A stretch of 64,000 nt of DNA from Thermoanaerobacterium aotearoense (GTDB lineage: Bacteria; Bacillota; Thermoanaerobacteria; Thermoanaerobacterales; Thermoanaerobacteraceae): contig NZ_CP047602.1 of NCBI RefSeq assembly GCF_009905255.1, forward strand, positions 1,785,501 to 1,849,500, in the 5' to 3' direction. The notes under the pieces were generated by a model. It was not told the origin of the DNA. It did not search any database and was given only the letters and a program-made list of their open reading frames with translations. Position 1 is the first letter of the stretch. Every line of letters starts with the position of its first letter. A program made the position numbers and the translations under genes. Shown one piece after another: positions 40,503 through 45,088 of the stretch.

Positions 40503-42821
40503 TCACTCATCACCTACTAACGACAGTTTCAAAACTTCATCTATGTTTGAAACAAATTTAAATTCCATTTTCTTCTTTACACTTTGCGGTATCTCATCTA
40601 AATCCCTTTTGTTGTCTTCTGGCGCAATTACTTTAAAAATACCTGCTCTATGTGCAGCCAGCACTTTTTCCTTTAAGCCGCCTATCGGTAAGACTTTACC
40701 TGTAAGGGTTATTTCGCCGGTCATGGCAATATCGCCTTTTACAGGAACTTTCTTTATCGCAGATACCATAGCCGTAACCATTGTTACGCCTGCTGATGGG
40801 CCATCTTTCGGTATCGCACCTTCAGGCACATGTATGTGAATGTCTAAATTTTTGTAAAAATCGCTATCTATTCCCAAAGCATCTGCATTTGACCTTATAT
40901 AGCTGAAACCTGCTTGTGCCGATTCTTTCATCACATCTCCCAACTGTCCTGTCAATGTGAGTTTTCCGCTTCCAGGCATCGTAGTCGCTTCAACAGTAAG
41001 CGTATCACCACCTACCCTTGTCCACGCAAGTCCTGTCACCATGCCTACTTTATCTTTCAGATTGGCCTTGTCTACCCTGTATATTGGCTTCCCAAGGTAT
41101 TTTTGCAGATTTTTCTTTCCTACTTTTATAGACTTTTCTTTATTTTCTACTATGGCCTTTATGGATTTTCGCACAACTTTTGCAATGTTTTGCTCAAGTG
41201 ATCTCACACCGGCTTCTCTGGTGTACTCAGAGATTATGCCTACGATTGCCGAATCTTGTATCTTTATGATGTCTTCATTAGCACCGTGCTCTTTTAAAAT
41301 TTTTGGAATCAAATACTCCTTAGCTATGTTCAACTTTTCTTCTTCTGTATATCCAGAAATGTATATAACTTCCATCCTGTCTAAAAGCGGAGCCGGTACC
41401 GTATCAAGTGTATTGGCTGTAGTCACAAATAACACTTTTGACAAATCAAATGGCAAATCTATGTAATGATCTCTGTACGTAGAATTTTGCTCTGGATCCA
41501 AGACTTCCAGCATGGCTGATGCCGGATCCCCTCTAAAATCAGAGCTCATTTTATCGATCTCATCAAGAAGAAACACTGGATTCTTTGAACCAGCTATTTT
41601 CAAAGAATTTATTATGCCACCTGGTATAGCTCCTACGTACGTCCTCCTGTGACCTCTTATCTCGGCTTCATCCCTTACGCCGCCCAATGACAGACGCACA
41701 AATTTTCTGTTCATGGCTCTCGCGATTGACTTTCCTAAAGAAGTCTTCCCTACTCCTGGAGGTCCTACAAGGCACAAAATAGGGCTTTTCATTTTCTCAT
41801 GGAAGCTCCTTACAGCCAAAAACTCTAAAATCCTCTCTTTGACTTTTTTTAATCCATAGTGATCTTCATTTAATATTTTCTCGGCTCTTTTTATATCAAG
41901 CACATCTTTAGTCTCTTCATTCCACGGCAGGTCTAAAAGCCAATCGATGTACGTCCTTATGACAGAAGCCTCTTGATAGCCTGGTCCCATTCTGCTTAGC
42001 CTTCTTAATTCTTCTCTCGCTTTTTCCTTTACGTAATCAGGCAAATCCTTTGATTCGATTTTTTCTTCATACTCGTCTATTTCTTGATCAATCTCGTCAG
42101 CTTCACCAAGTTCTGCTCTTATCGCTTTTAATTGCTCTCTCAAATAGTATTCTCTTTGGCTTTTGTCTATCTGCTTATGAACTCGCATGTTGATCTTTTT
42201 TTCAATCTCCAGTATGTCAAGCTCTTTTAAGATAAATCCTAATAATTTTTCCAACCTTTCTCTTGGATCAAAGCACTCTAAAAGCTCTTGATTTTTGTCT
42301 TGGTTTAAGCTTAAATGTTCTGCTATCACATCAGCTAACCTTCCAGGTTCTTCAATCGTCACGACATTGTAAATGCTATCCAACGGTATTTTTGACGAAA
42401 TGCTTATATATTCTTCAAAAGCTGACGTTACACTTCTCATCAAAGCCTCTAATTCGCTGTCTTTTTCTACCTCTAAATCTATCTTCTCTAAAACTTCTAC
42501 TTCATAAAAGCTTTCATCGCTAATAAGATTTTTTAATTCTGCTCTGGAAATGCCTTCCACCAAAACCCTTACGACTTCTCCCGGAAGTTTAAGCATCTGT
42601 TTTACTTTTGTTATGGTGCCAACTCTATATATATCATCTATTGAAGGCTCATCTATATCAGCTTGTTTTTGCGTAACCAAAAAGACAAGTTGATTTCTAA
42701 GCATTGCCTCTTCAATAGCTTTAACAGATTTTCCCCTTCCTACATCAAAGTGCATGACCATATACGGAAACACTGTTATGCCTCTTAGCGGAACCATCGG
42801 TAGTATGTATTTCTTGTCCAT
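40503..42821 (-). CDS. lon: ATP-dependent protease Lon (LonA type)
   Basis: 772-residue Lon: N-terminal substrate-binding domain (about residues 1-305), AAA+ module with Walker A LVGPPGVGKTSLGKS and Walker B PVFLLDEIDKM, and a C-terminal Ser-Lys protease domain with the active Ser in PKDGPSAGVT and Lys in GGLKEKVLAA. The start at 42821 (MDKKYILPMVPLRG) has GAGGTGA 6 bases upstream. It degrades misfolded and regulatory proteins in the cytoplasm. It follows the truncated LonB-like gene. Confidence 0.98.
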   Translation of the reverse strand: MDKKYILPMVPLRGITVFPYMVMHFDVGRGKSVKAIEEAMLRNQLVFLVTQKQADIDEPSIDDIYRVGTITKVKQMLKLPGEVVRVLVEGISRAELKNLISDESFYEVEVLEKIDLEVEKDSELEALMRSVTSAFEEYISISSKIPLDSIYNVVTIEEPGRLADVIAEHLSLNQDKNQELLECFDPRERLEKLLGFILKELDILEIEKKINMRVHKQIDKSQREYYLREQLKAIRAELGEADEIDQEIDEYEEKIESKDLPDYVKEKAREELRRLSRMGPGYQEASVIRTYIDWLLDLPWNEETKDVLDIKRAEKILNEDHYGLKKVKERILEFLAVRSFHEKMKSPILCLVGPPGVGKTSLGKSIARAMNRKFVRLSLGGVRDEAEIRGHRRTYVGAIPGGIINSLKIAGSKNPVFLLDEIDKMSSDFRGDPASAMLEVLDPEQNSTYRDHYIDLPFDLSKVLFVTTANTLDTVPAPLLDRMEVIYISGYTEEEKLNIAKEYLIPKILKEHGANEDIIKIQDSAIVGIISEYTREAGVRSLEQNIAKVVRKSIKAIVENKEKSIKVGKKNLQKYLGKPIYRVDKANLKDKVGMVTGLAWTRVGGDTLTVEATTMPGSGKLTLTGQLGDVMKESAQAGFSYIRSNADALGIDSDFYKNLDIHIHVPEGAIPKDGPSAGVTMVTAMVSAIKKVPVKGDIAMTGEITLTGKVLPIGGLKEKVLAAHRAGIFKVIAPEDNKRDLDEIPQSVKKKMEFKFVSNIDEVLKLSLVGDE

Positions 42822-42891
42822 AAAGTCACCTCTTTTGCCTATTTGCCTTATGATAAATATATTATACATTAAAATATTCTAATCTCAAAAA

Positions 42892-43752
42892 CTATAAAAT
42901 CACTCTTTTTAAGTCATCTGCAGTTATTTCATCTCTCCCATGCTTTAGCGCTTCAATAGCCAGATGCTGAAGCATACCTACAGCATCTTCTCCATTTTTT
43001 GCAGCGTCAGCAATTTTTATGCATACTCCATCATCAACGTGAAACATCCCCTTATTAGCAGCATTTTTGATTATATCTGCCAATACTCTTTTATGGTATT
43101 CCTTAAATTGAATGATTTCGCATAAATCTAACAATTCATCTGGTAAAAATGTAAAATCATCTGCATTAACAGCAACACGAAAATCTGCCGGAAATCCTTC
43201 TTTTAAAAAGCGCTTCACATGATCTGGAGCATTTAAAATCAAACTGTCTTCGTAGTGCACTTTTTTCGATTTCATAACATCTAAAAGCTTTAAAATATTG
43301 TCTGACGTCAAGTTTTCTGCATTACTAATGTAAAGAATCCCCTTATTTGCCCTTGTGACAAGCCCTATCTTTATTTTTTTCACTTTGTAAAAGCCAAAAG
43401 CAGTTTCATATACGTATCCAAACAATGAATTGCTAATAAAGACATCGCTGGTTTTCATATCAGGATAGTATTCTACAAACTCTCCACTTTTAAAGAAGCT
43501 TCCTTCGCTATTTTTAACCTCTCTAAAACACGCTCTTAAAATATCCCTTTTCCACGAACCTCCAGGACCAGTTAATACCATGCTCTTAGGGTTTTGGCTC
43601 CGCAAATTATTCAGTATTTTTAACACAGCCTCATCTTGACCTAAAATATCACCAACCTTTTGCACCCGGCACTTTTCTTTAAGAGGTTCATCAAGATGCA
43701 TTTGAATGAATTTTTGCCTATCTTCGTATGGCATCGCAGTATTTTGTGTCAT
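42892..43752 (-). CDS. LonB-like AAA+ pseudo-enzyme, protease domain absent
   Basis: 286-residue protein sitting where LonB is found in Bacillus (clpX-lonB-lonA-engB order). It aligns by eye with the AAA+ part of LonB: LKEKCRVQKVGDILGQDEAVLKIL, ANKGILYISNAENL, EGFPADFRVAVNAD and ITADDLKRVI. Walker A is degraded (GPGGSWKR, residues 62-69, for GPPGVGKT) and Walker B has lost its Asp-Glu (LYISNAE, 140-146, for LFIDEIGE). The N-terminal membrane anchor and C-terminal Ser-Lys protease domain of LonB (about 550 residues) are missing. The frame is intact with a strong ribosome site, so it seems kept as a non-catalytic protein, perhaps a regulator or adaptor for Lon or ClpX. Confidence 0.82.
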   Translation of the reverse strand: MTQNTAMPYEDRQKFIQMHLDEPLKEKCRVQKVGDILGQDEAVLKILNNLRSQNPKSMVLTGPGGSWKRDILRACFREVKNSEGSFFKSGEFVEYYPDMKTSDVFISNSLFGYVYETAFGFYKVKKIKIGLVTRANKGILYISNAENLTSDNILKLLDVMKSKKVHYEDSLILNAPDHVKRFLKEGFPADFRVAVNADDFTFLPDELLDLCEIIQFKEYHKRVLADIIKNAANKGMFHVDDGVCIKIADAAKNGEDAVGMLQHLAIEALKHGRDEITADDLKRVIL

Positions 43753-43756
43753 AAAA

Positions 43757-43797
43757 AACCTCCTTCTACATCTGATATTATGTGATAGAAGGAGGTT
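43757..43797 (-). terminator. Hairpin with T-run containing the LonB-like ribosome site
   Basis: A perfect 12-bp stem lies between clpX and the LonB-like gene. On the minus strand AACCTCCTTCTA pairs with TAGAAGGAGGTT across a 17-base loop and is followed by TTTTTT and then the ATG. The 3' arm is the Shine-Dalgarno sequence. It can act as an intrinsic terminator after clpX and, when read through, would mask the ribosome site. Confidence 0.72.
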
Positions 43798-43813
43798 CTT
43801 ATATACTTACTTG

Positions 43814-45088
43814 TTACGATACAGACTCAGATTTCTTGACTCTCTTTTTTGTCTTTTGCGACTCTGAGTAAACAATCGTAGGTGGAGCATTGTTTAAAAC
43901 TGTTTCTTCTGTTATGATGCACTTCTCAATGTTGTCGCTGGATGGTATCTCATACATTACATCAAGCATAAGCTCTTCAAGTATAGACCTTAATCCTCTC
44001 GCGCCCGTCTTCCTGTCTATTGCCTTTTGTGCAATAACACTTAAGGCTTTTTTGTCAAACTCAAGTTTCACGCCATCCAATTCAAACAACTTTTCATACT
44101 GCTTTGTAAGTGCATTTTTAGGCTCTGTCAATATGCGTATCAAAGCATCCTTATCAAGAGAATCAAGTGTCACAACAATAGGAAGCCTTCCGATAAACTC
44201 TGGAATAAGTCCAAATTTCAAGAGATCTTCAGGCATGATATTCTTTAAGATCTCACCTATCTTCTTCTCCTGTTTGCTCTGAATCTCTGATCCAAAACCT
44301 AATGACTTTTTACCTATCCTGGATTCTATTATCTTTTCAATGCCGTCAAAGGCACCGCCAACAATGAACAAGATGTTTGTGGTATCAATCTGTATGAATT
44401 CTTGATGAGGGTGTTTCCGCCCACCTTGAGGTGGAACATTTGCCACAGTACCTTCTAAAATCTTTAACAATGCTTGCTGTACACCTTCACCAGAGACATC
44501 ACGCGTAATCGACGGATTCTCTGATTTTCTGGCTATCTTATCAACCTCATCAATGTATACAATACCTTTTTCTGCCTTTTCTATGTCGTAATCTGCCGCC
44601 TGTATAAGCTTAAGAAGGATGTTTTCCACATCTTCACCTACATAACCCGCTTCCGTAAGTGATGTAGCATCTGCTATTGCAAACGGCACATTAAGCATCC
44701 TGGCTAATGTCTGTGCAAGAAGCGTCTTACCGGAACCAGTAGGGCCTAACATCAGGATATTGCTTTTTTGAAGCTCTACATCGTCAGATTTTACTCTGCT
44801 ATTAATCCTCTTGTAATGATTGTAAACCGCTACTGCCAACGCTTTTTTTGCCTTGTCTTGACCTATTACATACTGGTCAAGAAACTCTTTTATCTCCTTT
44901 GGCTTCGGAAGTTCACCTATCTCTACATCGATGTTTTCTTCAAATTCTTCATCGATGATTTCTTGGCAAAGCTCTATACACTCGTCACAGATATATACGC
45001 CTGGACCGGCAACTAATCTTTTTACCTGATCCTGTGACTTCCCGCAAAAAGAGCACTTCAACTGTTTTTGATTATCATATTTAGCCAT
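43814..45088 (-). CDS. clpX: ClpX, ATPase subunit of ClpXP protease
   Basis: 424-residue AAA+ unfoldase. The N-terminal zinc finger has four Cys (CSFCGKSQ...CDECIELC, residues 12-43). Walker A is [13 protein letters not shown], Walker [12 protein letters not shown], the sensor/arginine region [16 protein letters not shown]-like block and [10 protein letters not shown] are present, as is the ClpP-docking IGFG-type loop (LGFG). It feeds unfolded substrates to ClpP, encoded 20 bases upstream. Confidence 0.98.

Follow-up and report, generated by a model that had tools for sequence, protein, structure and literature searches.

We report a gene, located between clpX and lon, whose product is by its sequence a descendant of spore LonB, yet does not qualify as a LonB protease on any of the catalytic features that we tested, and which is under purifying selection at the protein level. 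The account that we prefer, and to which we give an even chance of being right, is that the gene arose once from spore LonB, that its product has become a catalytically dead AAA+ scaffold, and that it forms a sporulation-linked unit of its own. The gene and its 2 neighbours are positioned as follows in the window, by which we mean the whole 64-kb stretch of DNA that was analysed.

Positions 42892 to 43752, minus strand: gene for a truncated LonB-derived AAA+ protein of 286 aa, recognised by homology to positions 44-329 of the 531 of spore LonB and by its orthologues.
Positions 43814 to 45088, minus strand: clpX, the upstream neighbour, recognised by gene order.
Positions 40503 to 42869, minus strand: lon (LonA), intact, the downstream neighbour, recognised by gene order and profile; its likely start codon is at 42821.

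The open reading frame (ORF) has the location and the sequence given for it in the initial annotation of this DNA. Its best-matching family is spore LonB (NCBIfam TIGR02902), with homology restricted to the AAA+ half of that protein: the match scores 108.8 bits over profile positions 44-329 of 531, far from the full-length match above the curated cut-off of 723 bits by which a spore LonB is recognised. The Ser-Lys protease domain is wholly missing, as had been claimed in the annotation, and so is the N-terminal hydrophobic (membrane) segment of full LonB, the profile match starting only at position 44. When the genome was searched with Lon, no detached LonB-like protease domain was found elsewhere; the gene is therefore not one part of a split LonB whose protease domain is encoded at another site. 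Compared with spore LonB/LonBA of the Firmicutes (TIGR02902; B. subtilis LonB, PMC9569914), the ORF has a homologous AAA+ core and lid and the same place between clpX and lon. Unlike those proteins, its product has neither the membrane segment nor the protease domain, its Walker A and B motifs are degenerate, the Arg finger and the sensor-2 Arg are gone, and the pore-loop insert is shortened. The literature searched, which covered few subscription journals, contained no account of spore LonB being conserved in a truncated or inactive form.

The truncated form was observed between clpX and lon in 8/8 Thermoanaerobacterium genomes in which lon was found, and also in G009, which belongs to another genus of the same family; in all 9 carriers the reading frame is open. 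In G008, the ninth assembly from Thermoanaerobacterium (610 contigs, 89% complete), not even lon was found, which makes it uninformative. Sequencing error or a pseudogene confined to a single strain is ruled out, since nine species carry the same truncated form. The order clpX-ORF-lon-engB, which had been pointed out for this window and includes the order clpX-lonB-lon by which a spore LonB is recognised, holds in the Thermoanaerobacterium carriers and in G009, although clpX could not be scored in G003, where the contig ends inside it. Among relatives, 10 genomes of a Thermoanaerobacter-like genus (g3, probably Thermoanaerobacter itself) are without the gene and have lon directly after clpX, family f2 has no LonB gene, and the 2 genomes of the sister family f3 have a full LonB with intact motifs. 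In one of the g3 genomes (G019) lon was seen as two abutting frames, L053 and L057, which reflects a frameshift or a sequencing error.

Phylogenetically, the truncated forms make up one monophyletic clade with long branches (support 100/100), and the attachment of this clade to LonB is suggested by best-match scores and gene order rather than by the tree. Among the matches listed for 299 genomes sampled across the phylum, LonB is full-length except for a few shortened frames near contig ends; the open frames of less than 500 aa outside the clade, again among the matches listed, measure 324, 410 and 479 aa, and each lies near a contig end. The relatives found among genome contigs were 2 Thermoanaerobacterium records (T. 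saccharolyticum and T. butyriciformans), 1 full LonB and 2 weak AAA+ matches, and none was found among viral contigs.

The residues that would be expected to act in catalysis were compared with those of full LonB and across the 9 orthologues, and the 2 Walker motifs could be placed.

Positions 43546 to 43569, minus strand: degenerate Walker A, residues 62-69, GPGGSWKR, with the Thr lost.
Positions 43318 to 43338, minus strand: degenerate Walker B, residues 139-145, ILYISNA.

Full LonB has GPPGVGKT at the first of these sites, and GPGGSWKR in the ORF keeps the Lys but not the Gly and Thr; at the second, LFIDEI of full LonB is replaced by LYISNA, and the Asp-Glu pair is gone. We observed that G62, P63, G65 and K68 of Walker A are invariant in 9/9 orthologues; the Lys is preceded by W, E or G (Trp or Glu within Thermoanaerobacterium) and followed by K or R. 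None of the 9 has the Walker B Glu, and the Asp position of that motif is occupied by D, N or S. The protein had been described as one without ATPase motifs; the GPGGSWKR and LYISNA replacements on which that description was based are indeed seen, but the motifs are degraded and not wholly absent. The sensor-2 Arg (NGRDAV in LonB) is E, N or S in the orthologues, as in NGEDAV, and the Arg-finger region RSRC, at positions read from the LonB alignment, has become LDLC or similar, an Arg being left only in G009 (RRMC). Part of the pore-loop insert is lost as well; the GQ box, at about residues 36-39, is kept. Because the Walker B Glu, the Arg finger and the sensor-2 Arg have been lost and the pore-loop insert has been shortened, ATP hydrolysis and polypeptide translocation by the ORF product are very unlikely. 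In the aggregate, residues of the fold and of the P-loop scaffold are invariant and catalytic residues drift, and the series from GVGKK in G009 through GIEKK in G004 to TWKK and SWKR in the others puts successive stages of P-loop degradation on show.

The invariance of the 4 Walker A residues in 9/9 sequences, together with the kept GQ box, could also be read to mean that the protein still binds nucleotide through its GPxGxxK loop and, without hydrolysing it, signals through a change of conformation. We regard such a nucleotide-sensing switch as quite improbable, for in Thermoanaerobacterium Trp or Glu stands in place of the Gly before the Lys, and Lys or Arg in place of the following Thr/Ser, changes that should disturb the binding of phosphate and Mg, and the sensor-2 Arg and Arg finger are gone.

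With regard to the fold, the structure prediction that had been proposed for this protein was carried out with AlphaFold2 from four sequences, and the resulting model, which is of moderate confidence (pLDDT 63, pTM 0.55), recovered the AAA+ order of strands and helices, followed by a helical lid. Foldseek and VIA-align matched the model to AAA+ chains of RuvB and of the RFC clamp loader (E 4e-9, Z up to 14.1, rmsd 4.8 over 201 residues). Catalytically dead AAA+ subunits are known in the clamp-loader delta and delta-prime proteins and in BchD of Mg-chelatase. As predicted here for the ORF product, these have kept the AAA+ fold and lost ATP hydrolysis, with a presumed role as scaffolds; however, each of them shares a complex with active AAA+ paralogues, whereas the genome of the ORF yielded no paralogue of the LonB or LonC type.

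The initial annotation had claimed that a pseudo-AAA protein is retained at this locus, and an alignment of the orthologues with a test for selection bears this out: dN/dS of the truncated gene in close pairs is 0.15-0.30 (Nei-Gojobori). Neutral simulations that started from the window gene and used the observed number of base changes gave 74-84% amino-acid identity (sd 1.1-1.4), as against 85-89% observed; for the pair G000-G002 the values were 78.9% (sd 1.2) in simulation and 88.4% in observation. At close-pair divergence the frame was open in only 1-5% of the neutral runs. Also, 25% of residues are invariant across the nine sequences, in which synonymous sites are near-saturated. Amino-acid identity above that of the simulations, and the rarity of open frames in neutral runs, therefore establish the purifying selection stated at the outset. 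Active LonB in close relatives combined with neutral drift here, which would have spoken against retention, was not what we observed, the close orthologues being equally truncated.

The constraint on the truncated gene is nevertheless clearly weaker than that on lon, for which dN/dS is 0.006-0.12 and mostly below 0.06. Non-synonymous change in the truncated gene is 3.5-11 times faster than in lon (G000 compared with G009, G001 and G002); the same ratio for full LonB in the sister family is 1.26. Values for engB, and for clpX of G003, were disregarded because of misplaced frames or ends. The fast non-synonymous change, the drift of catalytic residues and the absence of the gene from the 10 Thermoanaerobacter genomes and from family f2 are what would be seen under the main rival to our account, namely slow decay, in which LonB was no longer needed in this family, protease and ATPase were lost, and the ORF is a weakly selected relic heading for a loss like that in Thermoanaerobacter. 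Mutants of B. subtilis in lonB show little phenotype, which would allow such erosion. We find slow decay rather unlikely, however, in that dN/dS remains within 0.15-0.30, none of the nine frames is interrupted where neutral simulations leave so few of them open, a quarter of the residues are invariant despite the near-saturation of synonymous sites, and the start codon, Shine-Dalgarno sequence and upstream hairpin are conserved. If the gene is the retained scaffold that we propose, it offers a traceable case of an energy-dependent protease that is without protease and ATPase activity, with selection keeping the AAA+ fold, the position and the control region.

The control region lies in the gap between clpX and the ORF, and a further element lies in front of lon.

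Positions 43753 to 43799, minus strand: hairpin between clpX and the ORF with a stem of ~14 bp, the Shine-Dalgarno sequence AGAAGGAGGT in its 3' arm and U6 just before the AUG, recognised by folding, shuffles and conservation.
Positions 43775 to 43782, minus strand: CATAATAT in the hairpin loop, a sporulation-type -10 element of a putative promoter, recognised by sequence match and conserved.
Positions 43800 to 43802, minus strand: ATA, a putative sigma-E-like -35 element 17 nt upstream of CATAATAT, by the element definition in PMC3789822.
Positions 42861 to 42888, minus strand: separate sigma-A-like promoter of lon, TTGAGA-N16-TATAAT (11/12), conserved in 8 genomes.

The hairpin at the end of clpX has a z of -3.64, and 0/200 shuffles were as stable. 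It buries the Shine-Dalgarno sequence in 9/9 carrier genomes, in which the start codon and the Shine-Dalgarno sequence are conserved as well; the ribosome site, which had been called strong, is strong in sequence but sits in the 3' arm of a stable hairpin. In the hairpin alignment 93.6% of cells pair and two both-side changes are seen, and covariation support is weak (44/500 shuffles reach the value) because few sequences differ. The terminator scan omits this hairpin, its loop being longer than the 8 bases that the scan allows, and Rfam gave no credible match. One occurrence of ACCTCC...GGAGGT was counted in the 64-kb window, where 0 are expected. Although the gene is gone from the g3 genomes, their clpX-lon gap still contains a hairpin with CATACTA in its loop, and the hairpin may on that account serve clpX or lon. 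In the g3 gaps L041-L050, which are without the LonB gene, the loop of the persisting hairpin contains CACATACTA.

The -10 element in the loop varies among carriers, being CATAATAT in the ORF's hairpin, CATACTAT in G004 and CATATAAT in G009, with ATA 16-18 nt upstream. By a pattern chosen after inspection, the pair of ATA and -10 element is expected 0.002 times per 60 nt and strand in the window. Mother-cell -10 boxes of C. difficile are CATATTAT and CATATAAT, and its sigma-E -35 element is ATA (PMC3789822). In B. subtilis, lonB is listed as a forespore gene of sigma-F (PMC3416734), and no strict sigma-F promoter was found for the truncated gene; the elements in the loop resemble those of sigma-E/K more than the sigma-F type of B. 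subtilis lonB. Given that listing, either the truncated gene may use another sigma factor than B. subtilis lonB, or our promoter assignment may be in error. In the sister family, the genes for full LonB have a comparable leader, with a Shine-Dalgarno hairpin and the layout CACCTC...CACATAATAT...GAGGAGGTG, and because they share it the control region appears to be older than the loss of catalysis. In the full LonB genes L010 and L011 the first in-frame ATG overlaps the Shine-Dalgarno sequence (ATGCATGAGGAGGTGATT); the true start codon is for this reason probably further downstream, and may be non-standard.

These features bear on the operon that had been supposed to join the gene to its neighbours. 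The gene has a fixed position between clpX and lon in all carriers, as would be the case if it belonged to an operon with clpX and lon and if, during growth, its product served ClpX or LonA as a constitutive subunit or adaptor. The operon is weakened as an explanation, and we hold this reading to be very improbable indeed, in that clpX ends in a hairpin followed by U6 that separates it from the gene, the Shine-Dalgarno sequence is hidden in RNA reading through from clpX, and lon has a conserved sigma-A-like promoter of its own. The control region suggests a role in sporulation more than one in general proteostasis.

A comparable arrangement has been described for sigG of B. subtilis, where a large hairpin has been proposed to keep read-through RNA silent, a hairpin that cannot form in transcripts started at the sigG promoter itself (PMC5942855). 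At the truncated gene, likewise, a stable hairpin encloses the Shine-Dalgarno sequence in read-through RNA from the upstream gene, and by analogy it would not form in RNA from the gene's own putative promoter. Unlike in the sigG leader, U6 and then the start codon come after the stem here, and the loop contains the -10 element, as placed by sequence match.

Under our preferred account, the Shine-Dalgarno sequence of clpX read-through RNA would be hidden by the hairpin, or that RNA would be ended at the start codon. Transcription of the gene would proceed from the sporulation-type promoter with its -10 element in the hairpin loop, and the short RNA started in the loop would alone have a free Shine-Dalgarno sequence. 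Being without ATP hydrolysis or translocation, the protein would exert its effect in sporulation through binding. Its likeliest role would be that of an adaptor or decoy, with former LonB clients or LonA/ClpX as partners, although these partners are guesses. A more specific version, in which the product regulates LonA or ClpXP as a non-catalytic AAA+ protein specific to sporulation, expressed from a promoter nested in the hairpin that ends the clpX message and hides the ribosome site, is one that we consider unlikely and put forward tentatively. The gene makes testable what a Lon-type AAA+ module can do without ATP hydrolysis.

Similar leaders were observed elsewhere in Thermoanaerobacterium. 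The perfect pattern CCTCCTT...AAGGAGG occurs 3-6 times per genome in this genus, and a reversed control gave 0 matches. The sites that recur lie, besides at the truncated LonB gene, upstream of two M23 genes, one spoIIQ-like and located between spoIID and spoIIID, the other spoIVFA-like and followed by an M50 gene, and also upstream of an ORF of 66-69 aa in the ctsR region and of a permease gene. Upstream of dacF-spoIIAA the hairpin is of a looser kind. At the spoIIQ-like gene (L083, 1501-1559) a sigma-F-like promoter, GTATA-N14-GGTTAAAAT, lies wholly inside the hairpin, the 3' arm of which is the Shine-Dalgarno sequence, and this hairpin is conserved across the genus. Sporulation genes account for 3/7 of the other gene starts with such hairpins, a small set that was judged after the fact. 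These searches have singled out a few Thermoanaerobacterium genes whose leader is of the promoter-in-hairpin type, and several of these are sporulation genes. The ORF of 66-69 aa, which is of no known family, is conserved in the genus upstream of a CtsR-like gene and has the same leader with the Shine-Dalgarno sequence in a hairpin (L096, at C1:2294157-2294205 on the minus strand of the window's own genome; also L100, L108, L110, L112, L114 and L115). Possibly, it encodes an unrecognised sporulation protein.
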